Below, in pieces: positions 10,404 through 63,900 of a stretch of DNA of 64,000 nucleotides. How positions within the stretch are numbered: position 1 is the first letter of the stretch; every line of letters starts with the position of its first letter. The stretch comes from Xylophilus sp. GW821-FHT01B05. GTDB taxonomy: Bacteria > Pseudomonadota > Gammaproteobacteria > Burkholderiales > Burkholderiaceae_C. The translations under genes were made by a program, and so were the position numbers. Below the pieces are notes generated by a model. The model did no database searches, was not told the origin of the DNA, and saw only the letters and a program-made list of their open reading frames with translations. The stretch covers positions 4,960,001 through 5,024,000 of the forward strand of contig CP152408.1 in the NCBI GenBank assembly GCA_038961845.1. The letters are read 5' to 3'.

Positions 10404-10477
10404 AGGGATTCCTTCTCAAACTGTTGCACGACTCACTGGCCGTCTCTCCGGCCTGTCCTTGCCGCCCGGTGTGGACA

Positions 10478-10507: not shown

Positions 10508-10528
10508 CGATCAGCGCATGGTTAGCGC

Positions 10529-12728: not shown

Positions 12729-12890
12729 GGCCCGCATTATGGAATTTTCGCGGGGCCCTGGCCGGCCATGCCGCATTGATATATCTCCCAGTGCAAACAG
12801 CCGGTTGTGCAGGGGCGGCCCGCGCGGAATAGTCGCGGCAGCGGCGGGACAGCCGCCCGCGTTCCATTTCCCAGGATTCCAAGGAGACTT

Positions 12891-13868: not shown

Positions 13869-13893
13869 CCTGAACCCCAAAGCCCTGACGCCC

Positions 13894-14769: not shown

Positions 14770-14807
14770 GCACTTTCTTTCCTTTCCCTAAAAAACACGG
14801 AGACACC

Positions 14808-45547: not shown

Positions 45548-45721
45548 ATGCCCACCGAAGAAACCGCCGCCTCCCTCACGCTCAAGCTCCGCTGGGCGCG
45601 CCAGCAGTTCATGCGCGACACGCCCACCCTGGCCCAGGCCGAGAAGCGGCAGCGCGAGCAAGAGTTGGCCGCGCTGGAAGAGGCCCTGCGCCAGGCGCAG
45701 GCCAGCGAGAGCGCTCTGTAG
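45548..45721 (+). CDS. Small hypothetical protein, helical
   Basis: A 57-residue protein rich in Ala, Glu, Gln and Arg, probably one long amphipathic helix or coiled coil (LAQAEKRQREQELAALEEAL). It has no membrane segment or signal. An AGGAG site lies 5 bp before the ATG and it ends 20 bp before the RIO-kinase gene, so it is probably translated and cotranscribed with it. I do not recognise a family. Confidence 0.65.
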   Translation: MPTEETAASLTLKLRWARQQFMRDTPTLAQAEKRQREQELAALEEALRQAQASESAL

Positions 45722-45741
45722 CCACAGCGCACAATGGGCCG

Positions 45742-46587
45742 ATGAAAGCCCCCCAAAGACTAGAGTCACTGATCGAAGAAGGCCTGATCGACACCGTCGT
45801 GCGCCAGCTCATGAGTGGCAAGGAAGCCATGGTCTACGTGGTGCGCTGCGGCGACGAAACGCGCTGCGCCAAGATCTACAAGGACGCCACCCAGCGCAGC
45901 TTCCGCCAGGCCGTCGACTACACCGAAAACCGCAAGGTCAAGAACACACGCCAGGCGCGCGCCATGGCCAAGGGCACGCGCTTTGGCCGGCAAGCCACCG
46001 AGGCCGCCTGGCAAAGCGCCGAGGTCGATGCGCTGTTCCGCCTGGCCGCCGCCGGCGTGCGCGTGCCGCGCCCCTACAACTTCGCCGACGGCGTGCTGCT
46101 GATGGAGCTGGTGGCCGACGCCGAAGGCAATGCCGCGCCGCGCCTGAACGACGTCGTCTTCACGCCCGAGGACGCGCGCCGGCACCACGCCAGCCTGCTG
46201 ACCGAGGTGGTGCGCATGCTGTGCGCCGGCATCGTGCACGGCGATTTGTCCGAGTTCAACGTGCTGCTGGCGGCCGACGGCCCGGTCATCATCGACCTGC
46301 CCCAGGCCGTGGACGCCGCCGGCAACAACCACGCCGGCCGCATGCTGCGCCGCGACGTCGCCAACCTGCGCGGCTTCTTCGGCCAGTTCGCGCCCGAGCT
46401 GCTGCACACCCACTACGGCGACGAGATCTGGCAGCTGTACCAGCACGGCACGCTGCGCGAAGACACGGTGCTGACCGGCATCTTTGTGGGCGAGAGCGGC
46501 CCGGTGGACCTGGGCGGCGTGTTGCGGGAAGTGGATGACGCGCGGGACGAGGAAGCGGCGCGGCGTTTGCGGATGGCGGGGGGCTGA
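45742..46587 (+). CDS. RIO-type (PA4780-like) serine protein kinase
   Basis: A 281-residue atypical protein kinase. ATP Lys44 lies in RCAKIYKD after SGKEAMVYVV; the catalytic loop is HGDLSEFNVLL (Asp168, Asn173) and the metal Asp185 is in IIDLPQAVD. Length and motifs match the bacterial RIO1-like group. It may phosphorylate proteins in stress or translation control; bacterial targets are largely unknown. It follows a 57-residue ORF closely on the same strand. Confidence 0.9.
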   Translation: MKAPQRLESLIEEGLIDTVVRQLMSGKEAMVYVVRCGDETRCAKIYKDATQRSFRQAVDYTENRKVKNTRQARAMAKGTRFGRQATEAAWQSAEVDALFRLAAAGVRVPRPYNFADGVLLMELVADAEGNAAPRLNDVVFTPEDARRHHASLLTEVVRMLCAGIVHGDLSEFNVLLAADGPVIIDLPQAVDAAGNNHAGRMLRRDVANLRGFFGQFAPELLHTHYGDEIWQLYQHGTLREDTVLTGIFVGESGPVDLGGVLREVDDARDEEAARRLRMAGG

Positions 46588-46668
46588 CGACTCAAGCCCG
46601 CCGACTGCACGAAGGCTTGTTGGCCTTGCCGGCGGCGGGTGAAGGGCGCTGCTTTAAAAAAACAGCCT

Positions 46669-47991
46669 TCAGCGTCGCCCCAAGAGTGGCGAGCGGCCCA
46701 TCTTCTCCGCCGGCGTGGGCACTGCCGGCTTCACGGCAGCAAAGCCTGCTTCTTCAATTGCAGTGGCCAATGACGGCAGGCTCCAGCTTCTTTGAAGACG
46801 CAGGCTGTTCATCCCCGCATTCCACGCATGCAGCATTCGCCTCCCCGTTTCATGGAAGGATGGATAGCGGTTTATCGCCTCGATGACCTTCGGCGTGACG
46901 CTCACCATGGCCTCGCATATGCGCTCCACGCGCTCTCGGGTCTGTGCGGGCATGACCCCGCACCGCACTTGCAGAAACCGCTCCAGGGCCCGGCCGGGCG
47001 CCCAGGTGCTTCGCCCCTCCACCGACATGCCCGGCGGGTTCTTCGCATAGTCTTCGTACACCGTGATCGTCAGCATGTCGTAGACCGGCGCCAGGCTGAT
47101 GTTGTCGCGCGATGAGTACAGTAGCGCGATGTTTTTGGTGTGGCAGTCCGCGTTGCGCAGGGCATAGGTCAGCAGCAGCAGGTCCGCCAGTTGCGAAAGC
47201 GCCGCGTTTTGCTGCGCCGCATCCGCCACTACGTCCTTGATGCGGCTGACTACGCGCTCCCAAGTCGACTGATACTTCTCCTCGGGTCGCAGCGACAGCA
47301 GACTGCACAGGTCTTCCATCCCCTTGCGGGTGATGCCGTCAGCCTCGAAGTCGAATCGGTGCACCACGAGCGCCTGCCCGTCGTCGGACACTTCCGTCTG
47401 CGCCGTTGGAATACCTGCCTGGCGCGAAACCTCCATGCAAAAGTGCTCGTTGAGCGCCACACCTGGAAGTTTGGCGGTGGTGCCCTTGATGATGTGGCGG
47501 TCGGTCGCCAGGGTTCCCTTGCCAAAGGCTTCAAGCGTATGGGGCGACAGGAACTTGGGAACGACGCCCGACACCCCTGAAATGGCGTACCTGCGAACCA
47601 GTTCAACAAAGGCCGCCTCGGAGTTGTCCCCCCGCAGGATGGACGCAAGCTCGAAGGGCACGGGCGGCTGTGTTGGATTGGCTCCGGGAGCCGCGACTTT
47701 GACTCGACCAATGGCATTGCGCCCCACCACAGAGAGCAGGTTGAGCGGCGATGCGCCAACGTGGGGCCCGAGTTGCTCCTGCAGGATGGACAGCAAGAAG
47801 CCTTCTGGCAGATTCATCCGGAACACAGGATGCAAATCCGGATAGGCGTAGGACTCCGTGCGCACCGGCATGAGCAGCGAGACGAACTGCTCGGGCGCAG
47901 CGTCAGGGTGGTAGGCCATGACGTGCCGGAACCCGTCGGTGGACTCCAGAGTGGCCACCGGCTTGTCGTGCACGAAGACATGGACCTTCAT
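46669..47991 (-). CDS. hipA: HipA-type serine/threonine kinase toxin
   Basis: A 440-residue toxin. The N-terminal HipA_N domain lies near residues 1-110 (MKVHVFVHDKPVATLES, FRMNLPEGFLLS); the kinase domain follows, with SGVSGVVPKFL near 140, HIIKGTTAKLPGV near 168, the catalytic RNADCHTKNIALL near 291 and metal-binding YDMLTIT near 318. It forms a type II pair with the HTH protein whose stop overlaps its start by 4 bp. E. coli HipA phosphorylates glutamyl-tRNA synthetase; the target here is not known. Confidence 0.93.
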   Translation of the reverse strand: MKVHVFVHDKPVATLESTDGFRHVMAYHPDAAPEQFVSLLMPVRTESYAYPDLHPVFRMNLPEGFLLSILQEQLGPHVGASPLNLLSVVGRNAIGRVKVAAPGANPTQPPVPFELASILRGDNSEAAFVELVRRYAISGVSGVVPKFLSPHTLEAFGKGTLATDRHIIKGTTAKLPGVALNEHFCMEVSRQAGIPTAQTEVSDDGQALVVHRFDFEADGITRKGMEDLCSLLSLRPEEKYQSTWERVVSRIKDVVADAAQQNAALSQLADLLLLTYALRNADCHTKNIALLYSSRDNISLAPVYDMLTITVYEDYAKNPPGMSVEGRSTWAPGRALERFLQVRCGVMPAQTRERVERICEAMVSVTPKVIEAINRYPSFHETGRRMLHAWNAGMNSLRLQRSWSLPSLATAIEEAGFAAVKPAVPTPAEKMGRSPLLGRR

Positions 47992-48269
47992 CTCTGCTCC
48001 CTGTTGTCGCTCGCAAAGTCCCGCTGCCGCTCCGCCAGCGCATCGTCCAAGGTGAACTCGCGCTTCATGGGCACGTAGCGCATCTCATAGCCCAAGACCT
48101 CCAGCAACCGTAGGAGCTTTCGAGAGCCGAATTCGGCCACGCCCCCCGTCTCGAAGCGCGCCAGCGTCGACTGCCCCATGCCGCACAGAGAAGCCAGCTC
48201 TTTCTGCGTCATACCCCGCTCCCTGCGCAGAAGCGCAAGTGATCGACCAAGGTCAAGCAGTGTGTTCAT
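47988..48269 (-). CDS. hipB: HipB-type antitoxin, XRE-family DNA-binding protein
   Basis: A 93-residue protein with a Cro/CI helix-turn-helix (RERGMTQKELASLCGMGQST, then LARFETGG) and a basic/acidic tail. It should neutralise HipA and repress the operon. Translation is coupled to hipA through an ATGA overlap. A 5-bp inverted repeat with the 8-bp spacing of HipB operators lies 41 bp upstream. Confidence 0.9.
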   Translation of the reverse strand: MNTLLDLGRSLALLRRERGMTQKELASLCGMGQSTLARFETGGVAEFGSRKLLRLLEVLGYEMRYVPMKREFTLDDALAERQRDFASDNREQR

Positions 48270-48310
48270 GTGCTGTATTTGCTATCAAAATCACCCGAAA
48301 CGCTCAGAAT

Positions 48311-48328
48311 TCCATTTAAAAATATGGA
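48311..48328. promoter_or_regulatory. Candidate HipB operator
   Basis: TCCAT and ATGGA are separated by eight A/T-rich bases upstream of hipB. E. coli HipB binds TATCC-N8-GGATA, so the arm sequence is similar and the spacing identical. The surrounding ~100 bp is strikingly AT-rich, as expected of the hipBA promoter. Confidence 0.5.
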
Positions 48329-48414
48329 TGAGCCCCGGATATTTATAGCATATAAAGCATTATTCAATGATCGACGTGGTGCAGCACTCCAGGCGGCGAT
48401 CTCCTAGTGTCGCG

Positions 48415-49200
48415 TCAAGCCTCAATAGTCGGATAGAGCCTGAGCAACTTGACCCGAGCATCCTCAGAGGTGAACTGCCAGTTGATCTTGGCCTTGAGGT
48501 TGTCGCGGCGCTGCTGCCAGGCGGCAACCTCCGAGCGCATGGTCTCGATAGAGTCGATACGCCGGTCCAGGCATTGGCCAATCATCACGTTGAGTTCAAT
48601 CTCGGCCATGTTGAGCCAACTGCCGTGCTTGGGCGTGTAGACAAACTCGAAGCGATCCCACAATGCCTTGGCCTCTTCGGGCACAAACGTCTCGTAGAGT
48701 GCGCCCGCAGTGTGGGTGTTCAAGTTGTCCATGACCAGGGTGATGCGCTGCGCCTCGGGCCAGGCCTGGGCTATTTCCTTGACGAAGTGCGCCCAGTCGG
48801 GTTTTGTCTTGCGTTCGGTGACCTGCGTGATGCGCCGTCCCGCCAATGGCTCACAGGCCATGAAGACGTTGCAGTGGCCCTGGCGCTCGTATTCGTAGTC
48901 CTCGCGCGCAGGCCGCCCAGGTGCAGCTTCTATCGGCTGGCGCGTCTGGCCTATCAGTTGGCGCGGCGTCTCGTCCATGCACACCACCGGGTGTGCGGGG
49001 TCGTAGGGGCGGCAGTAGACGTCAAGCACTTGCTCCATCGCCGCCACGAAGGCCGCGTTGTCCTTGGGCGGGATCACCCAGCCAATCTTGCGCCAGGGCT
49101 TGAGTTCGTTTTTTGAAGGGTTTTGCGCACCGTCTCGTGCGACAGGCTGTCTGCGTAGGAGAGCTCGACCGCCCGATCGGCCAGCAGTCGCAGGCTCCAA
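48415..49200 (-). CDS. IS630-family transposase, catalytic part (orfB frame)
   Basis: The open frame has 261 codons, but only about the last 230 are transposase. The DDE residues are visible: Asp in VVCMDETPRQL, Asp in LVMDNLNTHT and Glu in NMAEIELNVM, with GSWLNMAE as the IS630 signature. Residues before about position 30 are the out-of-frame overlap with orfA. It is probably made only as a fusion with the upstream frame by slippage at the A6 run (49109-49114). No independent ribosome-binding site is evident. Confidence 0.85.
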   Translation of the reverse strand: MEPATAGRSGGRALLRRQPVARDGAQNPSKNELKPWRKIGWVIPPKDNAAFVAAMEQVLDVYCRPYDPAHPVVCMDETPRQLIGQTRQPIEAAPGRPAREDYEYERQGHCNVFMACEPLAGRRITQVTERKTKPDWAHFVKEIAQAWPEAQRITLVMDNLNTHTAGALYETFVPEEAKALWDRFEFVYTPKHGSWLNMAEIELNVMIGQCLDRRIDSIETMRSEVAAWQQRRDNLKAKINWQFTSEDARVKLLRLYPTIEA

Positions 49201-49547
49201 CGGGCGCTGCCCTGCGGAGGCTCGCCGCAGCTCAGGGCGATCAGGCGAGCCTCTAGCTCGCCATCGATCTTGCGCAGGTAGCTGCGCTCGGGCCGCTTGC
49301 GCTGCAGTGCGGCTGGCAGACCTTCTTCCACCATGCGCTTCTTGAGCCGGTCTATCTTGCGCTCGCTCACGCCCATTAACTGGGCGATCTCGCTGTTGGT
49401 CTTGTGCTCGCGGCTGCTGTGCGAGCGGTCGCAGTTGAGCAGGATCAAGGCATTGATCACTTCGCTCGTCTTGTGCGCTCCCTTGCGTGTCAGCGCGCTC
49501 AGTTGCTCCCGCTCTTCCGGGCTCAGATTGACTGTGTAATGCTCCAT
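49074..49547 (-). CDS. IS630-family transposase, N-terminal DNA-binding part (orfA frame)
   Basis: A 157-codon frame starting MEHYTVNLSPEEREQL, with helix-turn-helix regions (NSEIAQLMGVSERKIDRLKK near 51 and SLSHETVRKTLQKT near 133). The last ~13 residues after LQKT are out of frame with the transposase. Reading CAA-AAA and slipping back one base continues as NELKPWRK in the catalytic frame. This is either programmed -1 frameshifting, known in some IS630 members, or an inactivating deletion. Confidence 0.85.
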   Translation of the reverse strand: MEHYTVNLSPEEREQLSALTRKGAHKTSEVINALILLNCDRSHSSREHKTNSEIAQLMGVSERKIDRLKKRMVEEGLPAALQRKRPERSYLRKIDGELEARLIALSCGEPPQGSARWSLRLLADRAVELSYADSLSHETVRKTLQKTNSSPGARLAG

Positions 49548-49592
49548 CCCTCTATTGTCTTCTGCCGACGTTTTAGGATTGACGCGACACTA

Positions 49593-49751
49593 GTGTCGCG
49601 TCAAGCGTGAGGTGACGGATGGGTGCGAAGGCATCGGCGTGCAGCGCAAGGCGCGGGCCGCCGCCCAGGCTTTACGCCTGGGCAAGGGCTGCAACGCAGC
49701 GATGCGCGGCGAGGGCAAGCGCACACCGGCAGATCATGCTTGACGCGACAC
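49593..49751. mobile_element. MITE-like non-autonomous relative of the adjacent IS630 element
   Basis: This 159-bp element shares the outer 12 bases of the IS630 terminus at both ends (GTGTCGCGTCAA and its complement), with subterminal agreement to about 25 bp. It is flanked by TA on both sides, sharing one TA with the IS. It has no coding frame. Inside is an 8-bp-stem hairpin, GCCCAGGC / GCCTGGGC (49663-49683). Confidence 0.8.
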
Positions 49752-49848
49752 TAGGTTTGCATGGCCCGCCAGGGCACGACAGGCATGGATTGACGACCCA
49801 GACGGCTATCGGGCGAGTCCCGGCTCACAGCGATGGCAAAACACCATT

Positions 49849-49911
49849 ACTATCAAATAGATAGCTACCAGCCCAGTCGGCACCTGGGCTACAGGCACTT
49901 TTTACCTAAAA
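49849..49911 (+). repeat. Dispersed intergenic repeat, family A, copy 4
   Basis: ACTATCAAATAGATAGCTAC, AGCCCAGTCGGCACCTGGGCT and ACAGGCACTTTTTACC. Its distal end overlaps the last codons and stop of the minus-strand chemoreceptor gene. A remnant of block G (GGGCGAGTCCCGGCTC) precedes it at about 49811. Confidence 0.8.
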
Positions 49912-51446
49912 ACGCTCACCGCCTCCACCAGCCTTGTGGCCTGCTGCTTCAGGCTGGCCGAGGCTGCTGCGGTCTGCTCGACCAGCGCGGCGTTCTTCTG
50001 GGTGATGTCGTCCAGGTCGTTCACCGCCCGGTCTACCAGGGTGATGCCGTCGCTCTGCTCGATGGTGGCCGAGCTGATCTCGGCGATCAGGTCGGAGACG
50101 CGCTTCACACGCGAGACGATCTCGTCCATGGTCTTGCCGGCGTCATCGACCAGGCGCGAGCCCCATTCCACCTTGTCGACGCTGGCGCTGATCAGGCCCT
50201 TGATCTCCTTGGCGGCTTCGGCACTGCGCTGGGCCAGGCTGCGGACCTCGCCCGCCACCACGGCAAAGCCACGGCCCTGCTCGCCGGCGCGGGCGGCCTC
50301 GACCGCGGCGTTGAGGGCCAGGATGTTGGTCTGGAAGGTGATGCCGTCGATGACGCCGATGATGTCGGCGATCTTCTTGGAGCTGTGGGTGATCTCGGTC
50401 ATGGTGGCGACCACCTCCGACATGGCCCGGCCGCCCTTGGTGGCGGCCTCGCTGGCCGAGCTGGAGAGCTGGTTGGCCTGGGTGGCGATCTCGGCGTTGC
50501 TGGCCACGGTGGCGGTCATCTGGCTCATGGACGAGCCGGTCTGCTGCACGCTGCTGGCGGCCTGCTCGGTGCGCACGCTGATGTCGTCATTGCCCTGCGC
50601 AATCTCGTTGACGGCGGCCTGCACCGTAAGCACCTGCTCACTTACATCGTCGATCAGCCAGCGGAACATCAGGCCCAGCTGGCTGATGGTGCGCAAGGTC
50701 ATGCCGATTTCGTCGACCCGGTCCATGTGCACCGCCTTCTGGCTTTCGCCAGAAGCCACGCGCAGCGCCTGGTCGCGCATTTCTTCCAGCGGGCGCGCGA
50801 TCTGCGCCTCCAGCCACCAGGTGGCCAGCAGCGCGGCGGCGGCCGCCACGCCGGCAAAGCCGCCAAGGGCAGCGCCACCCAGGCCCAGCGCCCAGGCGCC
50901 GCCAAGCAGTACCGGCAGCATGGCCAGCAAGGCCGAGCGGATGCGCCAGCGCACCGGCATGGTCTGCAGCCATGAGGTCCAGCCCAGCAGGCCGCTGCGC
51001 ACGATCAGGCCTTTGCGGAACTGGCGGCTGCCGGCCTTGCCGCTGCGAAAGCTGGCGTACAGCGCCTCGGCGGCGGCGATCTCCTCGCGCGAGGCCTTGG
51101 TGCGCACCGACATATAGCCCGCCTGCCGGCCGTTGCGCACCACCGGCGTGGCATTGGCGCGCACCCAGTAGTGGTCGCCGTTCTTGCGCCGGTTCTTCAC
51201 CAGCGCGGTCCAGGGCTCGCCGCCCTTGAGCGTGGCCCACATGTCGGCGAAGGCCTCTTGCGGCATGTCCGGGTGGCGCACCAGGTTGTGCGGCTGGCCC
51301 TGGATCTCTTCCCGGCTGAAGCCGCTGACCTCGACGAAGGCAGCGTTGGCGTAGGTGATGTGGCTCTGCGTGTCGGTGGTCGACATCAGGGTGGCGTTGT
51401 CCGGGAATTCGAACTCGCGCTGCGTGACAGGTTCATTGATGCGCAC
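49902..51446 (-). CDS. Methyl-accepting chemotaxis protein with N-terminal PAS domain (Aer-like)
   Basis: A 514-residue chemoreceptor. It has a cytoplasmic PAS domain (about residues 1-115; [29 protein letters not shown]), hydrophobic segments near 165-215, a HAMP-like stretch and a C-terminal signalling domain with the hairpin tip [20 protein letters not shown]. This is the Aer-type layout for redox or energy taxis. The start is GTG 51446, supported by AGGAG 8 bp upstream and the normal N-terminus [15 protein letters not shown]. Its 3' end lies inside a family A repeat. Confidence 0.92.
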
Positions 51447-51548
51447 ACTTGGCTCCTGGGAGTGGACAAGACCGCCGTCGTGAAACAGCGTGTGCAGCAT
51501 TAAGCCTTTTGTTACATATGTGGCGATTACACGGTATGACGGGCGCGC

Positions 51549-51654
51549 CTAGCTGGCCGGCACCTCCCAGCGCCCGGCGATGTTCTTCAGCAGCATGCCG
51601 ACCGCCATCTGCCGTCGGACGCACGGGCTCGGGCCCGCATTCGGCCACTACAAT
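51549..51654 (-). pseudogene. Remnant of the 3' end of a NodT-type outer-membrane factor gene
   Basis: The first 70 bp match 55751-55820, the end of the intact NodT-type gene, with about six mismatches and in the same orientation. Read on the minus strand it would end [18 protein letters not shown] then TAG, against [18 protein letters not shown] in the intact gene. Weaker similarity extends to about 51654. It has no start and cannot be a gene. It marks the left border of the fecI/fecR/receptor cassette. Confidence 0.85.
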
Positions 51655-51672
51655 CAAGAACAATTCTTATTT
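51652..51672 (+). promoter_or_regulatory. Candidate Fur box upstream of fecI-type gene
   Basis: AAGAA-CAA-TTCTT lies in an A/T-rich stretch 16 bp before the GTG start, between the NodT remnant and the sigma-factor gene. Position and palindromic A/T-rich form suit iron repression, but the match to the classical Fur box is only partial. Confidence 0.4.
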
Positions 51673-51683
51673 ACAACATTGCC

Positions 51684-52199
51684 GTGACCGCCCCGCCGCA
51701 GCCCAGCCCTTCTGCCCATGCCACCGTCGAGGCGCTCTACACCCACCACCATGACTGGCTGCAGGGCTGGCTGCGGCGGCAGTTGGGCAGCGCGGCCCAG
51801 CATGCGGCGGACTTGGCGCACGACACCTTCGTGCGGCTACTGGCCCGGCCGCGTCTGATCGATGCGGCGCGACCGCCGCGCGCCTACCTCAGCACCATCG
51901 CGCGCGGCTTGGTGATTGACCACTGGCGCCACCAGGCCGTGGAGCGCGCCTGGCTCGACACGCTGGCGGCCCAGCCCGAGGCATTCGCGCCCTCGCCCGA
52001 GGAGCAGGCGCTGGTGATCGAGGCGCTCTGCCGCATCAGCGCGCTGCTCGACCAGCTAGCGCCGCGACCGCGCCAGGCCTTCCTGCTGGCGCAGATCGAC
52101 GGACTGGGCTATGCGCAGATCGGCGTGGAGCTTGGCGTATCAGAGCGCATGGTCAAGAAATACATGGCGCAGGCCATGCTCCATTGCATTGCCGGATGA
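51684..52199 (+). CDS. ECF sigma-70 factor, FecI type
   Basis: A 171-residue sigma factor. Region 2 spans about residues 14-80 (YTHHHDWLQGWLRRQLG, AADLAHDTFVRLL, YLSTIARGLVIDHWR) and region 4 about 115-165 (RPRQAFLLAQIDGLGYAQIG, GVSERMVKKYM). It starts with GTG and overlaps the FecR gene by 4 bp. It should transcribe the downstream receptor gene when FecR relays the signal from the ligand-loaded receptor. Confidence 0.92.
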   Translation: MTAPPQPSPSAHATVEALYTHHHDWLQGWLRRQLGSAAQHAADLAHDTFVRLLARPRLIDAARPPRAYLSTIARGLVIDHWRHQAVERAWLDTLAAQPEAFAPSPEEQALVIEALCRISALLDQLAPRPRQAFLLAQIDGLGYAQIGVELGVSERMVKKYMAQAMLHCIAG

Positions 52200-53215
52200 G
52201 CGCGGACAAGACTCCGATCGACCCGCGCGCGCTGCGCGAGGCGGCCGAATGGTTTGCCGTGCTTGGCATGGCGCCGGGCTCAACTGCCGAACAGGATGGC
52301 TGGCGCCACTGGCTGGCCGCCGCGCCGGCCCATCGCAGCGCCTGGGCGCGGGTCGAAGCGGTGCAGGCCGGCTTCGCGCCGCCGCGGCAGTTGCCGGCCG
52401 CGCAGCGTGCGGCGGCCGGCGCCGCGCTGGATGCCGCCACGGCCCAACTGCGCCGGCGGCGGCTGGCGCTGCGCACGCTGCTGGTGGCCGGTGGCGGCGG
52501 CGTCATCGCCTGGGCCGCCGTGCGGCACACGCCCGGCGGCAACTGGCTGGCGGCGCTCGGCGCCGACCACCGCACGGCCACCGGCGACACACGCCGCCTG
52601 GAGCTGCCCGGCGGCGGCGTGCTCTGGCTCGCAAGCGCCACCGCCATCGATCTTGGCGATGACCCGGCCACGCCCGGTGGCCAGCGCCTGCGGCTGCGCC
52701 AGGGCGAGGTGCTGGTCGAGACCGGCCATGGCGCCGGCGCACGGCCACTGGTGGTAGAGACGCCGCACGGCCGGCTGCACCCGCTGGGCACGCGCTTTGC
52801 CGTGCGGCTACAAGACGGCGCGGCACAAACGCTGCTCGCGGTGTTCGACGGCCGCGTCGCGCTGCGGCTGGCCCGTGCGGCTGGTGGCGGCGACATCGTG
52901 GTGGACGCAGGACTGCAGCGCGCCTTCTCTGCCGATGCGGCCGGCCCGGCCGCCCCCGCCGATCCGGCCCGCGCCGCCTGGACACGCGGCGTGCTGCTGG
53001 CCGACGACATGCCGCTCGACGCCTTCGTGGCCGAACTGGCCCGCTACCGCCGTGGCCGATTGGCCTGCGCGCCTGATGCGGCCCAGTTGCGCGTGGCGGG
53101 GGGCTTCCCGCTGTACGACACCGACCGCGCGCTGGCCATGCTGGTCAATGTGCTGCCAGTGCAGGTGCGCCACACGCTGCCGTGGTGGACCACCGTGGAA
53201 TTGAGTCGGCCCTGA
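52196..53215 (+). CDS. FecR-type anti-sigma/sigma regulator
   Basis: A 339-residue inner-membrane regulator. The cytoplasmic N-terminal DUF4880 domain has EAAEWFAVLGMAPGSTAEQ near 16 and WLAAAPAHRSAWARVE near 39; one membrane segment lies near 91-109. The periplasmic FecR domain has GDTRRLELPGGGVLWLASAT and PHGRLHPLGTRFAVR, and a C-terminal STN-like part (ADDMPLDAFVAELARYRRGR). The ATG at 52196 overlaps the sigma gene stop. It passes the receptor signal to the FecI-type sigma factor. Confidence 0.9.
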   Translation: MSADKTPIDPRALREAAEWFAVLGMAPGSTAEQDGWRHWLAAAPAHRSAWARVEAVQAGFAPPRQLPAAQRAAAGAALDAATAQLRRRRLALRTLLVAGGGGVIAWAAVRHTPGGNWLAALGADHRTATGDTRRLELPGGGVLWLASATAIDLGDDPATPGGQRLRLRQGEVLVETGHGAGARPLVVETPHGRLHPLGTRFAVRLQDGAAQTLLAVFDGRVALRLARAAGGGDIVVDAGLQRAFSADAAGPAAPADPARAAWTRGVLLADDMPLDAFVAELARYRRGRLACAPDAAQLRVAGGFPLYDTDRALAMLVNVLPVQVRHTLPWWTTVELSRP

Positions 53216-53307
53216 AATCTTTTTTTAAAAAACCCGGATTTCCAGTTCCCTTTTTCCGCGCTCGCCCGGACTCCCTCCTGACAACCATCACCGAGGAGAA
53301 CCCGACC

Positions 53308-55749
53308 ATGCGCCACCGCGCTTTTTCCCCCACCCTGCGCCCGCTCGCGCTGGCCCTGCACCTGGCCTGCGCCGCCCTGGCTACCACGCCCGCGCTGGCG
53401 CAACCCGTCGCCGCGCCCGCCACCACCCGCTACGCCATCCCTGCGGGCCCGCTGGGCGCCGCGCTCAGCCGCTTCGTCGCGGATTCGGGCGTGTTCGTCG
53501 CGGCCGACGCCCGCCTGACCGCCGGCAAGGCCAGCCCCGGCGTGCAGGGTAGCCATACGCCGGCGGCGGCGTTGTCGCGGCTGCTGGCCGGCACCGGCCT
53601 GGAAGCCGCCGCGCAGGCCGGCGGCAGCTACACGCTGCGCGCAACGCCGGAGGTGAGCGGCGCTGCCGAAGGGCAGACGCTGGGGCTGGTCACGGTGACG
53701 GCACAGTCCGAGCAGGACGGCACAGCAGCAACCGTCGGCTACGTCGCCAAGCGCAGCGCGGCCGGCACAAAAACAGACACGCCGATCCTGGAGATTCCAC
53801 AGACCATCAACGTCATCACAGCCGACGAGATCACGGCCCGCGGCGCCACCAGTGTTTCGCAGGCCCTGCTCTACACGCCGGGCCTGAAGGTGTCCGGCTA
53901 CACCGAGAACTACATGCTGGCCGACGAGACCGCCTCGCGTGGTTTTGCGCCGGCGCCGCTCTACCTGGATGGCGCCTACATCCCCTATGCCGGCAGCCTG
54001 GGCGGCTCGGCGCAGATCGAGCCCTACAGCCTGGAGCGAGTGGAAGTATTCAAAGGCCCGGCCTCGGTGCTGTTTGGCCAGAACCAGCCGGGCGGCATCA
54101 TCAACATGGTGACCAAGAAGCCAAGCGCCGATGCGGTACGCGAGGTACGGTTAGGGGTTGGCAGCTATGGCCGCACGAATGCAGCGCTTGACCTGGGCGG
54201 CGCACTCGGCGAGCAGCAGACCCTGCTCTACCGCGTGGTGGCCGTGGCCAACGGCGGCAACCAGCAGACCGACTACACCAAGAGCCAGCGCCTGTTTGTG
54301 GCACCCAGCCTCACCTGGAAGCCGAGCGCCGCAACATCCCTGACGCTGTACGCGCAACTGCAGCGCGATGACGGCCTGTCGGACTACCAGGCGCTGCCGG
54401 CCATCGGATCGCTCTTCCCCGGCCCTAACGGGCAGCGGATCAGCCGCGACTTCTTCAACGGCGACCCCCACTACAACGACGTCTGGCGCAAGCAGGCGGT
54501 CGTGGGCGTGGACTTCTCGCATCGATTCAACGATGCCGTGCGCCTGCAGCAAAAGCTGCTCTTCATCGACGTCAAGGACCAGTACAAGGGCTTCTACCTG
54601 CGGGCATTCGCCAACGACGCCTCGGGCGCCACCGACACCAGCCGCGCCACCCGCACCAAGCTGGATTGGGCCCAGCACAACAACGTCCTGAGCCTGGACA
54701 ACAACCTCGAAATCCAGGCCAGCACCGGCGCCGTGCGCCACACCGTGCTGGCCGGACTGGACTACCGGCGCTTCTCGCGCAAATACGTGGGCTACAACGA
54801 CTATGCGTCAGCAGCCATCAACCTCTATGCGCCCAACTACAGCACCGTCACGGCGGCGCCTGTGCTGACGACGCGCTGGGACAACACGGTGGATCAGGTC
54901 GGCCTGTACCTGCAGGACCAGATGCGCTGGCAGGACTTCGTGCTCACCATCGGCGGCCGGCACGATTGGGCCGGCACCGACAACAAGGATCTGATCGCCG
55001 CCGACCGCACCCGGCAGGACGACAAGGCCTTCACCGGCCGCGCCGGCCTGACCTGGCTCGCCGGCAATGGCTGGGCGCCGTACGTGAGCTACTCGGAATC
55101 CTTCGTGCCGCAGATCGGCACCAACTTCGATGGAGCGCCCTTCAAGCCGACGACGGGCCGCCAGGTAGAGGCGGGCGTGAAGTACCAGCCGCCGGGCTCG
55201 AATGCGCTGGCGACCTTCTCGGTCTTCGACATCCGGCAGCAGAACGTGCTGACGAACGATCTGCAAAATATCGGCTTCTCCGTGCAGACCGGCGAGGTCC
55301 AGTCCCGGGGCGCTGAGCTGGAGGTCAAGGCCCGGCTGTGGAAGGTGCTCGACATCGCCGGTGGCCTCACCTATTCCGACGTGCGCACCACGCGCTCAAA
55401 CACGGCCACGGACATCAACCGCCAGTCGGCCGCCGTGCCGCAATGGAGCGCCGCGCTGTGGTCGAACTATCTCGTCCAGCCCGGCTTGAGCGTGGGCACC
55501 GGCGTGCGCTGGACGGGCAGTGCCTATGGTGACGCCAACAACAGCTTCCGCACCCCCGCCTATGCGGTGTTCGATGCCGCGCTGCGCTACGACCTGGGCC
55601 AGATCGACAGCCGGCTGCGTGGCGTGGAAGGCTCGCTCACGGTCCAGAACCTGTTCGACAAGACCTACATCTCCAGCTGCAACTATGCGTTTGGCTGCTA
55701 CTACGGCAAGGCACGCAGCGCGACCGCCAACGTGACCTACCGCTGGTGA
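53308..55749 (+). CDS. TonB-dependent siderophore receptor with STN signalling domain
   Basis: An 813-residue outer-membrane receptor of the FpvA/FoxA class. It has a signal peptide (cleavage near ALA|Q at 31), an STN domain (about 40-115; YAIPAGPLGAALSRFVADSG), a plug (about 150-260; EIPQTINVITADEITARG, VEVFKGPASVLFGQNQPGG) and a 22-strand barrel ending in VTYRW. The STN domain fits signalling to FecR encoded just upstream. An AGGAG site precedes the ATG. The stop lies 1 bp from the stop of the convergent NodT-type gene. The siderophore is unknown. Confidence 0.95.
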   Translation: MRHRAFSPTLRPLALALHLACAALATTPALAQPVAAPATTRYAIPAGPLGAALSRFVADSGVFVAADARLTAGKASPGVQGSHTPAAALSRLLAGTGLEAAAQAGGSYTLRATPEVSGAAEGQTLGLVTVTAQSEQDGTAATVGYVAKRSAAGTKTDTPILEIPQTINVITADEITARGATSVSQALLYTPGLKVSGYTENYMLADETASRGFAPAPLYLDGAYIPYAGSLGGSAQIEPYSLERVEVFKGPASVLFGQNQPGGIINMVTKKPSADAVREVRLGVGSYGRTNAALDLGGALGEQQTLLYRVVAVANGGNQQTDYTKSQRLFVAPSLTWKPSAATSLTLYAQLQRDDGLSDYQALPAIGSLFPGPNGQRISRDFFNGDPHYNDVWRKQAVVGVDFSHRFNDAVRLQQKLLFIDVKDQYKGFYLRAFANDASGATDTSRATRTKLDWAQHNNVLSLDNNLEIQASTGAVRHTVLAGLDYRRFSRKYVGYNDYASAAINLYAPNYSTVTAAPVLTTRWDNTVDQVGLYLQDQMRWQDFVLTIGGRHDWAGTDNKDLIAADRTRQDDKAFTGRAGLTWLAGNGWAPYVSYSESFVPQIGTNFDGAPFKPTTGRQVEAGVKYQPPGSNALATFSVFDIRQQNVLTNDLQNIGFSVQTGEVQSRGAELEVKARLWKVLDIAGGLTYSDVRTTRSNTATDINRQSAAVPQWSAALWSNYLVQPGLSVGTGVRWTGSAYGDANNSFRTPAYAVFDAALRYDLGQIDSRLRGVEGSLTVQNLFDKTYISSCNYAFGCYYGKARSATANVTYRW

Positions 55750-55750
55750 G

Positions 55751-57208
55751 CTAGCTGGCCGGCGCCTCCCAGCGCCCGGCGATGTTCTTCAGCAGCATGC
55801 CCACCGCCGCCAGCCGGCGGTTGCGCACGCCCAGCAGGGCGCTCTCGGCATTGAGGGCGGTGGCCTGGGCGGTGATCACATTCAGGTAGCTCACCGTGCC
55901 GGCGAAGTACTGGTTGTTGGTGACCTCCAACGCGCGGCGCGCGGCGGCCAGGGCGTCGGCCTGCACTGCCTGCTCGCGCTCCAGGCTGGCGGCGATGACC
56001 AGGTTGTCTTCCACCTCTTGCAGCGCGGTGAGCACGGTCTGGCGGTAGGTGGCCACGGCCTGGTCGGTCGAGGCGCGGGCCGATTCCACCGCAGCGCGGC
56101 GCGCGCCGCCATCAAACAGCGATACCGCCAGCGCCGGGCCCACCGACCAGAACAGGTTGGGCGCACTCACCAGATTGTTCAGGCTGGTGTTGCGGTAGCC
56201 GGCGCTGGCCGACAAGGTCAGCGCCGGGAAGAAGGCAGCGCGCGCCACACCGATCTGCGCATTGGCGGCGGCCACGCGGCGCTCGGCGGCGGCGATGTCG
56301 GGGCGGCGCTGCAGCAGGCTCGACGGCAACTGCATGGGCACCGGCGGCGCCTCGGGCAGTTGCGCGCTGCGCGCCAAGGTGAAGCCCGCGGGCGCCTGGC
56401 CGACCAGCGCGGCCAGCGCGTGCTCCAGTTGGGCGCGGTTGGTGTCGGACTCGATCAGTTGCGCCTCGGCGGACTTCAGTTGCGACTCGGCCTGGGCTAC
56501 ATCGGCGGAAGAGGCCACGCCCGAGGTGTAGCGGTTGCGCGTGAGTTCCAGCGACTTGCGGTAGGCGGCCAGGGTGTCGGTCAGCAGTTGCGACTGCGCG
56601 TCTGCGGTGCGCAGCGAGAAGTAGGTTTGCGCCACCGTCGCCTGGGTCGACAGGCGCAGCGCGGCCAGGTCGTCTGCGCTGGCCAGGACATTGGCCTGGG
56701 CCGCATCCACTGCGCCCGACAAACGGCCCCACAGGTCCAGCTCCCAACTGGCGCTGGCGCCCAGGGTGTCTATGGTGCGCGGCTTGCCGCCGGTGCTGCC
56801 AACCGGGTTGCCAGATGAATCCACCGTGCCCGAGCTGCTGCTGCCGCTGACGCTGCGCGTGGCGCCAAAGTTGCCGTTGACGGTGGGCAGTTGCGCCGCC
56901 TGACTGCTGCTTACTGCGGCCCGCGCGCTGCGCAGCCGGGCCACGCTCAGCGCCACGTTCTGGTTGCCGGCAGCGGCCTGTTGCTGCAGTTGGTCCAGCA
57001 CCGGGTCCTTGAACAGCGTCCACCAGTCGTCGGGCACGGCTGCCGCCTGCGGGTCGGCCGGCTGCCAGACGGCGGCGCCGGGCACGCCCTCTTTGTAGGC
57101 GTCGGGAATGTCCATGGCCGGGCGCACATAGGGCGGCGCGCTGTTGCAGGCGGCGAGCAGGCACAGCGTGGCCAACAAGGACAGGCGTAGGGAGCGATCA
57201 AGCAGCAT
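55751..57208 (-). CDS. RND efflux outer-membrane factor lipoprotein (NodT family)
   Basis: A 485-residue TolC-like channel. The N-terminal lipobox is LLAAC with lipidated Cys21. It contains two OEP repeats and the conserved [16 protein letters not shown] and [20 protein letters not shown] segments. The start overlaps the upstream RND gene's stop by 11 bp, so both are translated together. It should form the outer-membrane exit duct for the two RND pumps. The last ~23 codons are duplicated upstream of fecI. Confidence 0.94.
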
Positions 57209-60200
57209 CGGGAGATTCCTTGAAGGCCGGCAGCGCGGCCGCACGGCGTGCGCGGCGGCGCTGGCGCATGGTGCGCAGCCGGTCCAGCGCAACGTAGACA
57301 ACCGGCGTGGTGTAGAGCGTGAGCAGTTGGCTGCCGATCAGGCCGCCGACCACGGCAATGCCCAGCGGCTGGCGCAGCTCGGCGCCGTCGCCGGTGCCAA
57401 AGGCCAGCGGCAGCGCGCCGAAGATCGCTGCCACGGTGGTCATCAAAATCGGCCGCACGCGCAGCTGGCAGGCGCGGTAGATGGCCTGGGCTGCGCTGAT
57501 CGGGTAGGCGCGCTGCCGCGCCACGGCGAAGTCGATCATCATGATGGCGTTCTTCTTGACGATGCCTATCAGCAGGATCACGCCGATCATGGCGATCAGC
57601 GAGAACTCGGTCTTGAACAGCATCAGCGCCAGCAGCGCGCCTACACCGGCCGAGGGCAGCGTGGACAGGATGGTGAGCGGGTGCACCAGGTTCTCATACA
57701 GGATGCCCAGCACCAGGTAGATGGTGACCAGCGCCGCCAGTATCAGCACCGGCTGGCTGCCCAGCGCATCCTTGAAGGCGCCGGCCGTGCCGCTGAAGCT
57801 GCCGCGTATCGACACCGGCACGCCCAGCTCGGCAATGGCGTTGTTCACCGCCGCCGTGGCGTCCGACAGCGACACGCCCGGCGGCAAATTGAAGCTGATG
57901 GTGGTGGCCGGTGTGCCGCCCTGGTGGCTCACCGACAGCGGCGTGTTGGTGAGCTCCAGCCGCGCAAAGGCCGACAGCGGCACCTGCGCCCCGGTGCTGG
58001 AGACAAAGAAGAACTTGCGCAGCGACTCCGGGCTTTGCAGGTAGGCCGGCGCGGCCTCCATCACCACGCGGTACTGGTTCAGCGGGTTGTAGATCACGCC
58101 CACCTGGCGCTGGCCGAAGGCGTCGTTCAGGGTGGCGTCCACCACGCTCATGGTCAGGCCGTATTGCGCGAGCGCGTCGCGGTCTATCACCAGCGAGGTC
58201 TGCAGGCCGTTGTCCTGCTGGTCGCTGTTGACGTCTTCCAGCTCGGGCAGCGCCGCCAGCGCCAGGCGGATGCGCGGCTCCCAGGTGCGCAGCTCGGCGT
58301 TGTCGTCGGCCTGCAGCGTGTATTCATACGAGGCATTGGACTGCCGCCCGCCAATGCGTATGTCGCGCTGCAGGCTCATGTACAGGATGGCGCCGGGTTC
58401 GTTCTGCAACTGCTTGCGCAGGCGCTCTATGACCTCGGAAGACGAGGCATCGCGCTGGCCCAAGGGCTTGAGCGACATGAACATCTGCGCCGAGTTACGC
58501 TGCCCGCCGCCCGTAAAACCGGTAACGTGCTCCACCGCCGGATCGGCCTCGACGATGGCCAGGAAGCGCTTCAGGCGCTGCTCCATGGCCTGGAACGAGG
58601 TGGACTGGTCGGCACGGATAAAGCCGACCACGCGGCCGGTGTCCTGGTCGGGCAAGAAGCCCTTCTCGATCGCGCCATACAGGTAGACGTTGAGCCCCAC
58701 CACCGCCGCCAGCGCCAGCAGCGCCACGGGCTGGTGCCGCAGCATCCAGGCCAGCGAACGCCGGTAGCCGCGCCGCAGGCCCTGCTGCATGCGCGCCGAC
58801 CATTGCGACAAGCGCGAAGGCGGCCGGCCGTTGTCGCGCGGCGGCTTGAGCAGCGTGGCGCACATCATGGGCGTGGTGGTGAGCGAGACCACCATCGACA
58901 CCAGAATCGCCGCCGACATCACCACCGCGAATTCGCGGAAGAAGCGCCCGACGATGCCGCCCATCAGCAGGATGGGGATGAACACCGCGATCAGCGACAG
59001 GCTCATGGACACCACGGTGAAGCCGATCTCGCGCGCGCCCTCGAGCGAGGCCTGCAGCGCCGACTTGCCGCGCTCCATGTGGCGCGAGATGTTCTCCAGC
59101 ACCACGATGGCGTCGTCCACCACGAAGCCGGTGGCCACCGTCAGCGCCATCAGCGACAGGGTGTCCAGCGTGTAGCCCGCCAAATACATCACGCCAAAGG
59201 TGCCGGCCAGCGACACCGGCACCGCCACGCTCGGGATCAGCGCCGCGCGGCCGTTGCGCAAGAACAAGAACACCACCAGGATCACCAGCCCCACCGAGAT
59301 CGCCAGCGCGCGCTCTACCTCGCGCAGCGAGGCGCGCAGCGTGGGCGTGCGGTCAGAGACCACATCGAGATCAATCGCCGCGGGGATCGAGGCCTTGAGC
59401 CGCGGCAGCAGCGCGCGCACCCGCTCGGTCGCCTCCAGGATATTCGCGCCCGGCTCCTTGAAGACCTGCAGCAGGATGGCCGGCTTGCCATTGGCCACGC
59501 CGTAGTTGCGCACGTCCTGCACCGAGTCGCTTACCTCGGCCACGTCCTGCAGGCGTATCGCGTTGCCATTCTGGTAGGCCAGCACCAGCGGCGCGTACTC
59601 GGCTGCGGTGCGCGCCTGGTCGTTGGTGCCGATCTGCCAGTAGCGCCCGTCGCGCTCCACTGCGCCCAGCGGCCGGTTGGCATTGGCCGAGGTGACGATG
59701 GTGCGCACCGTCTCCAGCGAGATGCCGTTGGCGGCGAGCTGGGTCGGGTTCAGCTCGATGCGCACCGCCGGCAGCGCGCCACCGCCAATCGTCACCTGGC
59801 CCACGCCCTCGACCTGCGCCAGGCTTTGCGACAGCACGGTGGAGGCGGCGTCGTACATCTGCCCGCGCGTGAGCGTGTCGGAGGTGAGCGACAGGATCAG
59901 GATGGGCGAATCCGCCGGGTTGACCTTGCGGTAGGTCGGGTTGCTGGGCATGCCCGTGGGCAGCAGCGTGCGCGCCGCATTGATGGCCGCCTGCACATCG
60001 CGCGCGGCGCCGTTGATGTCGCGGTTCAGGTCGAACTGCAGCACCACCCGGGTGCTGCCCAACGTGGAGGTGGAGGTGAGTTCATTCACCCCCGCAATCG
60101 CGCCCAACGCCCGCTCCAGCGGCGTGGCCACCGTGGCGGCCATGGTGTCCGGACTGGCGCCGGGCAGGCTGGCGGAGACGGAGATGGTGGGGTAATCGAC

Positions 60201-60317
60201 CTGCGGCAGCGGGGCTACCGGCAGCATGAAGAAGGCTATTACGCCGGCTATCGCCAGGCCTAGGGTCAGGAGGCTGGTGGCTATGGGGCGGAGGATGAAG
60301 GGGGTGGAGGGGCTCAT
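57198..60317 (-). CDS. RND multidrug efflux transporter (MdtC/MuxC-like)
   Basis: A 1039-residue inner-membrane antiporter with 12 membrane helices and two large periplasmic loops. It has [20 protein letters not shown] at the N-terminus, [14 protein letters not shown] near 395-410 (helix 4, with the paired proton-relay aspartates) and [12 protein letters not shown] near 925-940. The ATG at 60317 matches the family start; a GTG four codons upstream is less likely. It resembles the second pump of the MdtABC/MuxABC systems, in which two different RND subunits work together. Confidence 0.93.
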
Positions 60318-60379
60318 GTTGCGATCCACCCCGACCGTTGGAACGCCTGGGACGAAGCGAGCTTTTGCTGCTCTTGCAG

Positions 60380-60760
60380 AGGGCGGGTGCCGGGAGTTCG
60401 CCCCGGCGGGCGAGTAACTTTCTTTCGCGTCGCCGAAAGAAAGTCACCAAAGAAAGGGCGACCCCACGTGCTGCGTCCCCTGCGCTTCGCTCCGGGGCAA
60501 CCTGTGGTGCTCGCGTCAGGCGGGGTATCGCCCAAACTCGCCTGCGGCTCAAACAAGGGCGATCCCTTATCCGCCTGCCGCTGCGCTCCTCGGCGCATCC
60601 CGAGGGGACCCGGGACAGCCACACGGGCCGTCGCTGCGCTCGGCCTCTTGCGCCCCCACCCCTGCCCTCCCCCAAAGGGGGAGGGAGTTGGGCCGTTCTG
60701 TATTGCCCCCTCCACCGCTGGGGGAGGGCTGGGGTGGGGGCCGGCTGTTGGATGTTCAGG
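60380..60760. repeat. Large intergenic repeat, family F, copy 2
   Basis: GGCGGGTGCCGGGAGTTCGCC, GGGCGAGTAACTTTCTTTCG, AGTCACCAAAGAAAGGGCGA, later GGGCCGTCGCTGCGCTCGGC and GGGGGAGGGCTGGGGTGGGG, inverted relative to 45090-45432. The stem-loop at 60418-60443 is CTTTCTTTCG, loop CGTCGC, CGAAAGAAAG. Its middle section differs from copy 1. Confidence 0.8.
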
Positions 60761-60787
60761 CTGTCCCACGCCGTTGGCAGCGCAGGC

Positions 60788-60886
60788 CTGACTCCGGCTC
60801 GCCTTTCTTTTGCCTACTTTTCTTTGGCGAAGCAAAGAACAAGTAGGTCGCCCGCCGGGGCGAGTCCCGGCTCCCGCCGCCTGCAA
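60788..60886 (+). repeat. Repeat block G, with stem-loop
   Basis: CCTGACTCCGGCTCGCC leads into an imperfect stem-loop (60813-60847, CCTACTTTTCTTTG / CAAAGAACAAGTAGG, loop GCGAAG) and then GGGCGAGTCCCGGCTCCCG. It precedes family A copy 5 directly. Related remnants precede family A copies at 19171 and 49849. Confidence 0.7.
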
Positions 60887-60895
60887 GGCAACAGA

Positions 60896-60959
60896 ACTAT
60901 CAAATAGATAGCTAACAGCCCAGGCAGCACCTGGGCTAAAGGCACTTTTCATCAAAAAA
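60896..60959 (+). repeat. Dispersed intergenic repeat, family A, copy 5 (best preserved)
   Basis: ACTATCAAATAGATAGCTAA contains CTATC/GATAG arms. It is followed by the perfect hairpin AGCCCAGG-CAGCA-CCTGGGCT and AAAGGCACTTTTCATC. It ends 6 bp before the stop codon of the minus-strand RND gene. Confidence 0.85.
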
Positions 60960-60965
60960 GAAGGC

Positions 60966-63900
60966 TCAAGCAGCATGCTTCAGTTCCCCTCTCCGCCGCC
61001 ACCGCTGCGCCAACCCCGCAAACCCCAGATAGATGACAGGCGTAGTGAACAGCGTCAGCAACTGCGACACGATCAAGCCCCCCACCATCGTCACCCCCAG
61101 TGGATGCCGCAACTCGCTGCCAACACCCGTGCCCAGCATCAGCGGCAAGGCGCCCAACAGGGCGGCAAGGGTGGTCATCAAGATGGGCCGGAAACGCAGC
61201 AGGCAAGCCTGGTAGATGGCATCGCGCGGTGACAAGCCCTGCTCGCGCTCAGCATCCAGCGCGAAGTCGATCATCATGATCGCGTTCTTCTTCACGATGC
61301 CAATCAGCAGCACGATGCCGATGATGGCGATGATGTCCAGGTCCAGCCGGGCGGCGAGCAAGGCCAGCAGCGCCCCCAGGCCGGCCGAGGGCAGTGTGGA
61401 GAGGATGGTGACCGGGTGAATGGTGCTCTCATACAGCACGCCCAGCACGATGTACATGGTGACCACGGCCGCCAGAATCAGCAGCAGCGTGTTCGACAGC
61501 GAGGCCTGGAAGGCCAGGGCCGCGCCCTGGAAGCTGGTCTCCACGCTGATCGGCATGTCCATCGCCGCCTGCTCGCTCTTGATCGCCTCCACCGCGTGGC
61601 CCAGCGACACGCCGGGCGCGGTGTTGAAGGAGATGGTCGCGGCCGGCAACTGGCCGACGTGGTTCACGGCCAGTGCGGTGGGCCGCTCTTCCACCGTGGC
61701 CACCGATGACAGCGGCACCGGCGCACCGAGCGAAGACGGCACGTAGATGGCGCTGAGCGCCTCTGGCCCCAACTTGAAGCGCGGCGCCACCTCCAGCACC
61801 ACGCGGTACTGGTTGGACTGGGTGAAGATGGTCGATATCAGCCGCTGGCCGAAGGCGTTGTAGAGCGCAGTGTCTATGCCCGCCACCGTCACGCCCAGGC
61901 GCCCGGCCTGGGCGCGGTCGATCTGCACGAAGGCCTGCAGGCCCTGGTTCTGCAGGTCGCTGGCCACGTCGGCCAGCTCGGGCCGCTGGCGCAGGCGCTG
62001 CAGCAGTTGCGCGGTGGTGGTCTGCAACTGCTGCATGTCGGGCGAGGACAGCAGGAACTGGTACTGCGTGCGCGCCACGCGGTCTTCGATGGTCAGGTCC
62101 TGCACCGGCTGGGCATAGAGCGCAATGCCGGGCACGTCGTGCACGCTGTCAGACAGCCGGCGCAGCACCTCGGCCATGGGGCCGCGCTGCGCCTTGGGCT
62201 GCAGGTCTATCAGCAGGCGGCCGGTGTTGAGCGTGGTGTTGGCGCCATCCACGCCAATGAAGGACGACACGCTCTTGACCGCCGGGTCTTGCAGTACGCG
62301 CGCCACCAGCGCCTGCTGGCGCTCGGCCATGGCGGCGAAAGAGATGGATTGCTCGGCCTCGGTCGTGGCCTGGATCGTGCCGGTGTCCTGCTCGGGGAAG
62401 AAGCCCTTGGGCACGACGAAGTACAGCAGCACGGTCAGCACCAGCGTGGCCAGAAACACCAGCAGCGTGAGGCCGCTGCGGTCCAGCACCCAGTTCAGCA
62501 TGCGGCCGTAGCCGGCGATGGTGCGCTCGAAGAAGCGGCCGGTGGCCTGGTACAGGCGGCCATGGCTTTCTTCGGGTGTGTGCTTGAGCAGGCGCGCGCA
62601 CAGCATGGGCGTGAGCGTGAGCGAGACCACCATCGACACCAGGATCGCCACCGCCATGGTGATGGCGAACTCATGGAACAAGCGCCCCACCACGTCACCC
62701 ATGAACAGCAGCGGGATCAGCACCGCGATCAGCGAGATGGTCAGCGAGATGATGGTGAAGCCGATCTGCTTGCTGCCCTTGAGCGCGGCCTGCATCGGCG
62801 TCTCGCCGGCCTCGACGTAGCGGGCGATGTTCTCGATCATGACGATGGCGTCGTCCACCACGAAGCCGGTGGAGATGGTGAGCGCCATCAGCGTCAGGTT
62901 GTTGATCGAGAAGCCGCACAGGTACATCACGCCAAAGGTGCCGATCAGCGACAGCGGCACCGCCACGCTCGGGATCAGCGTGGCCGAGAAGCTGCGCAAG
63001 AACACGAAGATCACCATCACCACCAGGGCCACGGCCAGCATCAGCTCGAACTGCACGTCTTTGACGGATGCGCGGATGGTCACGGTGCGGTCGGTCAGCA
63101 CCTGCACGTCGAGCGATGCCGGCAGCGTGGACTGCAGCTGCGGCAGCAGCGCCTTGACGCGGTCCACCGTCTCGATCACGTTGGCGCCGGGCTGGCGCTG
63201 GATGTTCAGGATCACGCCGGCGATGGAGCCCTGCCCAGGCAGGCCGGCCCAGGCCGCCAGGCGGGTGTTCTCGGCGTCGTCCACCGTGTCGGCGATGTCC
63301 TTCAGGCGGATCGGGTTGCCGCTCTTGTAGGCAATGATCAGGTTCTTGTATTCGTCGGCCGACTGCAACTGGTCGTTGGCGTCGATGGTGGAGGCGCGCG
63401 CCGGGCCGTCGAAGCTGCCCTTGGCCTGCTTGACGTTGGCCGCTGCAATCGCCGTGCGCACGTCGTCCAGCGTCATGCCGGCCGAGGCCAGCGCCACCGG
63501 GTTGGCCTGGATGCGCACCGCCGGCCGGCGCCCGCCGGCAATCGCCACCAGGCCCACGCCCGGCACCTGCGACAGCTTGGGCGCCAGCCGGTTCTCGACC
63601 AGGTCGTGCACGCGTATCACCGGCAGCGAGGGCGAGGTAATGGCCAGCGTCAGCACCGGCGCGTCGGCCGGGTTCACCTTGCTGTAGACCGGCGGCATGG
63701 GCAGGTCGGAGGGCAGCAGGTTGCTGCCGCCGTTGATGGCCGCCTGCACCTCTTGCTCGGCCACGTCCAGCCCGATGTCGAGCGAAAAGCGCAGCGTGAT
63801 GACCGATGCGCCGCCCGAGCTGGTGGACGACATCTGCGCCAGCCCCGGCATCTGGCCGAACTGGCGCTCCAGCGGCGCGGTGACAGAAGACGTCATCACG

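Follow-up and report, generated by a model that had tools for sequence, protein, structure and literature searches.

Cell-surface signalling modules of the FecI-FecR-FecA and PupI-PupR-PupB type carry the genes for a sigma factor, an anti-sigma factor, and a receptor in that order, with an STN signalling domain on the receptor. Here we describe a related module in a 64,000-nucleotide stretch of the genome of Xylophilus sp. GW821-FHT01B05 (contig CP152408.1, positions 4,960,001 to 5,024,000; "the window", within which all coordinates are given), where it lies between direct repeats of the 3' end of a nodT-type efflux gene. Segments bordered by direct repeats and missing from the allele of a relative have been described before and attributed to illegitimate recombination: in the cited sections of PMC2884548, 10-18% of variable segments are flanked by direct repeats, and 66-94% of those repeats are shorter than 30 bp. 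The locus shares the direct-repeat borders and the empty allele with those segments, which are short (20-500 bp), whereas here about 4.1 kb is enclosed by a 70-bp repeat. The reading we favour, and consider reasonably probable, is that the module was gained in this lineage after its split from the closest congener compared, entering the nodT 3' end by illegitimate or homology-assisted recombination and duplicating the resident nodT end.

Repeat copies and the cassette-free junction in a congener

We compared the locus with six other genomes of the genus (G001-G006; seven with our own). The closest of the six is G004, whose nodT gene is 90% identical. The nodT end in G004 directly adjoins the chemoreceptor side with no cassette between them, which is the arrangement that the initial annotation of this DNA had predicted for a relative lacking the module. 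Window positions 49811-51606 correspond to 8650-10447 of G004 L052 and positions 55765-60649 to 10404-15242, and the two aligned blocks have only repeat bases in common. The junction lies within a contig of 45,290 bases. The chemoreceptor gene is thus downstream of nodT on the same strand in G004 and is separated from nodT in our genome. The initial annotation had left insertion and tandem rearrangement side by side as explanations; the empty site in G004 supports insertion, and a repeat comparison of 49000-62000 listed neither a second cassette nor a second nodT body, leaving tandem rearrangement without support.

The two repeat copies (Table 1) agree without gaps at 64 of 70 bases (91%), so that the roughly six mismatches first reported are exactly six (left-copy positions 51562, 51600, 51607, 51608, 51610, and 51615). 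Their longest uninterrupted identity is 37 bp, starting at 51563. A search of the 5.83-Mb genome with the left copy (E <= 0.001) returned only itself and the right copy (E 7.4e-22), with no third copy, and among the seven genus genomes the nodT end is duplicated in ours only (a second match in G006 falls in another gene). Read in frame, the left copy encodes the C-terminal end of nodT and its stop codon, which bears out its derivation from nodT and excludes an unrelated conserved element. On the other side, its outer flank runs into the DNA upstream of the chemoreceptor gene and can be aligned to G004 from 51523. Because of this in-frame end and this alignable flank, we regard the left copy as standing in its native place and the right copy as the end of the intact gene.

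The suggestion that weaker repeat similarity continues to about 51654 did not survive control tests and was rejected. Gapped extension anchored at 51600 gave a score reached by 1 of 1000 control segments; anchored at 51608 it was weakly above chance (37 of 1000); and anchored at 51619 the score was 0, equalled by all 1000. Aligned to the corresponding nodT stretch, positions 51619-51660 did no better than chance, with 4523 of 5000 control segments equal or better. From 51638 onward the alignment is instead to DNA preceding fecI in a related Variovorax cassette described below, and we place the left joint between the end of the nodT similarity and the start of this one. A resemblance of the inner left copy to an HlyD-type secretion gene in G006 (86% over about 48 bases) was judged to be chance, because the same query matched at E <= 0.001 in at least 13 of 399 family genomes, our own included. 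A search at E <= 1e-40 found the HlyD-type gene itself in one genome of the genus out of seven and not in ours; the two sequences may nonetheless have a real shared origin.

Both copies encode the tail W-E-(A/V)-P-A-S-stop, which was not seen in the six congeners: the nodT tail is W-E-G in G004 and W-E-P-V in G003 and, read by eye, in G001, and those of G005, G006, and G002 are more divergent. Because such a tail would be unlikely in the nodT gene of another species, the repeat probably represents duplicated resident DNA, or DNA of a same-lineage donor, rather than an imported foreign nodT end. The duplication also appears younger than the G004 split. Between our genome and G004, nodT has a synonymous divergence of 0.31 and the chemoreceptor gene one of 0.34, and the repeat copies differ at 6 of 70 positions where about 15 differences would be expected if they dated back to that split (P 0.007). 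Within the first 51 bases, a limit set once the data had been seen, there is one difference against 11 expected (P 0.0002, or P 0.0025 if the left copy alone drifts).

Table 1. Features of the iron module, its repeat borders, and its two neighbouring genes.
Feature	Position	Strand	Evidence
Chemoreceptor gene, left neighbour	49902..51500	-	PAS, HAMP, and MCP signal domains (Pfam); collinear with G004
Left copy, orphan nodT 3' end with stop, in its original setting next to the DNA upstream of the chemoreceptor gene	51549..51618	-	Repeat alignment, G004 collinearity, in-frame reading
Left joint, from where nodT similarity stops to where Variovorax-cassette similarity sets in	51619..51637	.	Extension tests, Variovorax alignment
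Fur-box-like site upstream of fecI	51653..51674 (approximate)	+	Sequence; same position in Variovorax L003
fecI-like ECF (extracytoplasmic function) sigma factor gene	51684..52199	+	Sigma70_r2, Sigma70_r4_2, and TIGR02937 above cut-off
fecR-like anti-sigma factor/regulator gene	52196..53215	+	FecR and DUF4880 above cut-off; PDB 6ovk_R, E 3e-34
TonB-dependent siderophore receptor gene with N-terminal STN domain	53308..55749	+	STN, Plug, and barrel above cut-off; TIGR01783 above cut-off
Right joint, single base separating the receptor stop from the right copy	55750..55750	.	Sequence, Variovorax comparison
Right copy, 3' end of intact nodT	55751..55820	-	Repeat alignment, G004 collinearity
nodT-type efflux outer membrane protein gene, intact	55751..57211	-	OEP (Pfam); TIGR01845 outer_NodT above cut-off

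Identity and relatives of the iron module

The predicted module occupies about 4.1 kb and consists of a Fur-box-like site, fecI, fecR, and a TonB-dependent receptor gene with a signalling domain. The annotated gene content between the copies was confirmed by domain searches: all three genes are complete, the fecR start overlaps the fecI stop, and the receptor stop (55747-55749) ends one base short of the right copy. The element just inward of the left copy, Fur-box-like by its motif, is matched by one at the equivalent position in the Variovorax cassette. With genes for an ECF sigma factor, a FecR-type regulator, and an STN receptor all present, the locus classifies by its sequence as a Fec/Pup-type cell-surface signalling system. 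The FecR-like protein matches PDB chain 6ovk_R, presumably PupR, and the N-terminal part of the receptor has a match in the PupB signalling domain (6ovk_B) as well.

The module differs from the Fec and Pup modules in its receptor barrel and in its model scores. The best solved relatives of the receptor are FoxA and CntO, followed by an enantio-pyochelin receptor and then FhuA. No NCBIfam equivalog model for FecI, FecR, or the receptor reached its cut-off among 25 of 26 families shown (173.8 of 260 bits for FecI, 209 of 385 for FecR, and 84.8 of 1100 for FecA), and by this standard the predicted proteins do not make up a strictly defined ferric citrate (FecIRA) system. The receptor reads as a siderophore receptor, and its ligand is perhaps a hydroxamate siderophore. 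The most likely role of the module is cell-surface signalling: the iron-loaded siderophore would bind the receptor, whose STN domain would signal through FecR; FecI, once freed, would direct transcription of the receptor gene; and Fur would repress fecI in iron-rich cells.

The receptor was found at E <= 1e-150 in two of the seven genus genomes, our own and G002 (41% identical, at another place), and at E <= 1e-230 in at least one of 399 family genomes, the match being our own. In the protein collection it forms a cluster of one, and the next protein among the matches listed is 74% identical (7994 candidates scored). The nearest FecR is metagenomic (77% identical) and the nearest named one, from Variovorax sp. 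J22G73, is 66% identical. This Variovorax (L003) holds the nearest named relative of the module as a whole, with the three genes and the Fur-box-like site at 74.6% DNA identity over window 51709-55747 and similarity running from the Fur-box-like site (from 51638) to the receptor stop. The two cassettes differ in their neighbours: no nodT similarity lies beside the Variovorax cassette in the 22 kb compared, and beside it the sole matching window sequence is one short stretch from elsewhere.

Phage and plasmid sources for the module were considered and rejected. Window 49500-57211 is matched by 22 phage records; among the 15 listed, 14 match on the chemoreceptor gene and one on fecI, and none covers 80% of the query. 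Parts of 51400-55900 are matched by 118 plasmid records, the best listed reaching 68.8% over 21% and none covering 80%, and the joint at 51590-51720 had no plasmid match.

Two further observations concern these relatives. Directly upstream of the Variovorax cassette, at L003 7867-8119, a further stretch resembling a sigma factor gene is found in divergent orientation (69% to window 51745-52003). In G002, the receptor relative of 41% identity and a chemoreceptor-like match (76% over 598 bases) are a few kb apart (L058 1984-2579 and 7500-9830), the latter match possibly reflecting just the conserved signalling domain.

Gain by insertion and its alternatives

The observations behind the favoured reading are the empty site, the orphan copy, the identity of the module, the shared tail, and the low divergence of the repeat. 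The module would have entered at the nodT 3' end, between nodT and the chemoreceptor gene, in an insertion by which about 70 bp of resident DNA were duplicated. The nodT end already there would have stayed with the chemoreceptor gene as the orphan left copy, and the second nodT-end copy would have kept nodT intact on the other side. We infer that the module is of horizontal origin and that it was joined, most likely, by illegitimate or homology-assisted recombination. This is the best remaining class of mechanism because we found no recombinase among the three genes between the repeats (Pfam; shorter open reading frames there were left unscanned), no inverted repeats of at least 30 nt pairing the joints (repeat comparison; shorter ones lie outside its scan), no tRNA in the window, and no Ku (PF02735) in the genome (the control search was positive in one of 14 named genomes, B. 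subtilis). Ku-dependent end joining was set aside on this last result. Homology-assisted illegitimate recombination is described in naturally competent species in the cited sections of PMC2884548, and those of PMC3784515 describe duplications formed in transformation through repeats common to donor and host.

Several observations weigh against gain by simple insertion. The empty junction is seen in G004 alone, the chemoreceptor gene being apart from nodT in the other five congeners, and over the whole repeat the age test weakens to P 0.067 if the left copy alone drifts. Base composition puts no foreign mark on the module, whose three genes have a third-position GC content (GC3) of 0.86-0.88; nodT, both RND genes, the chemoreceptor gene, and cca lie at 0.89-0.93. 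A duplication of 70 bp is also long for known transposition target duplications. Finally, five of the six repeat differences fall within the last 19 bases (P 0.005), a clustering not predicted by plain drift once a segment has simply been duplicated but expected of a mosaic crossover or gene conversion. The crowding could reflect either of these, or constraint on the outer half of the copy as DNA upstream of the chemoreceptor gene.

A mosaic copy would fit a Campbell-type single crossover, in which a circle carrying the cassette and a nodT 3' end integrated and left the two copies as crossover products. Such an event would yield the identical anatomy: one border would carry the intact gene and the opposite border an orphan end. 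However, the common tail, unseen in the six congeners, would require a circle bearing a nodT end from this very lineage, and the 22 kb compared in Variovorax shows no nodT beside the cassette. We regard this route as unlikely, though deserving of some weight, and in our judgement duplication of resident DNA at insertion is about three times likelier than integration of a same-lineage nodT end. The cassette could instead be ancestral to our genome and G004, with G004 losing it precisely by recombination across the repeats. Precise loss would produce the G004 arrangement, and the 37-bp identical run exceeds the threshold of about 30 bp that the cited sections of PMC2884548 give for RecA-dependent recombination. 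This history is nevertheless quite improbable, since it requires two events, the repeats have diverged too little for an origin that early (P 0.007, or 0.067 with drift in the left copy alone), and no other of the seven genus genomes has the receptor (E <= 1e-150) at this place.

Genomic islands are known to integrate into gene 3' ends and to reconstitute the gene, and a site-specific integrase acting in trans might likewise have inserted the cassette into the nodT 3' end, with the repeats as attachment sites. By sequence, the locus resembles an integrase-type island in its direct repeats at a gene 3' end but lacks a recombinase within its three genes. That lack, the absence of a tRNA from the window, and the restriction of the duplicated nodT end to our genome among the seven leave this route a slim chance. 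Slimmer still is a tandem duplication of nodT that came first, with the body of the left copy later replaced or deleted as the cassette entered. An orphan 3' end would remain in that case too, but an extra event is needed, nodT similarity ceases near 51618 and leaves no trace farther inward, and nothing found lends it positive support.

Surroundings of the locus and meaning of the gain

The receptor and nodT stop codons are convergent and one base apart. No terminator-like site was found at this junction, a scan of 51300-56000 having given two elsewhere against 2.4 expected by chance. Interference between the expression of iron uptake and efflux is a possible side effect of the abutting stops. 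On the far side, inspection by eye puts the possible true start of the chemoreceptor gene at a GTG near 51446.

The wider interval from the cca-like gene to nodT (45007-57211) grows stepwise among the congeners. It is about 1.1 kb in G006 and holds one chemoreceptor gene in G004; in our genome it holds a RIO-type kinase gene, hipA/hipB, a transposase pair, the chemoreceptor gene, and the iron module. The interval reads as a gene-gain spot. A dispersed intergenic repeat has members at 60650-60965, 49811-49912, and 45141-45405, with strong inverted arms at 60652-60741. Its 60650-60965 member has 103 matches at E <= 0.001 in our genome, and copies of the dispersed repeat also occur in congeners. 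The segment 45142-49811, with the RIO kinase gene, hipA/hipB, and the transposase pair, is absent from G004 and has dispersed-repeat copies at both borders; it may have been brought in by recombination at this repeat. GC3 of hipA, hipB, and the transposase (0.76-0.78) is lower than that of their neighbours. The transposase (48415-49547) lies in two overlapping frames, a helix-turn-helix part at 49074-49547 and a DDE part at 48415-49200, and presumably belongs to an IS630-type element.

Given the 37-bp identical run, the module could in principle be excised by recombination across the repeats, which would restore the old nodT-chemoreceptor order. A far more speculative idea, which we hold to be very improbable, is that gene 3' ends, that of nodT among them, are reusable docking sites, where iron cassettes lacking an integrase enter and leave through a short duplicated gene end. 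Both neighbours would then be restored each time, and a population could swap siderophore receptors by insertion and precise loss.

The locus holds a module of a familiar type, most likely acquired through an equally familiar and ordinary kind of event, and the limits of the gain are unusually clear since a relative keeps the empty site. The filled site, the empty site, the orphan duplicate, and the limits of the module are all visible, and no mobile-element gene was found between the repeats. This clearly bounded gain suggests that an iron module of the cell-surface signalling type is able to travel whole, as a compact unit reaching from its Fur-box-like site as far as the receptor stop.

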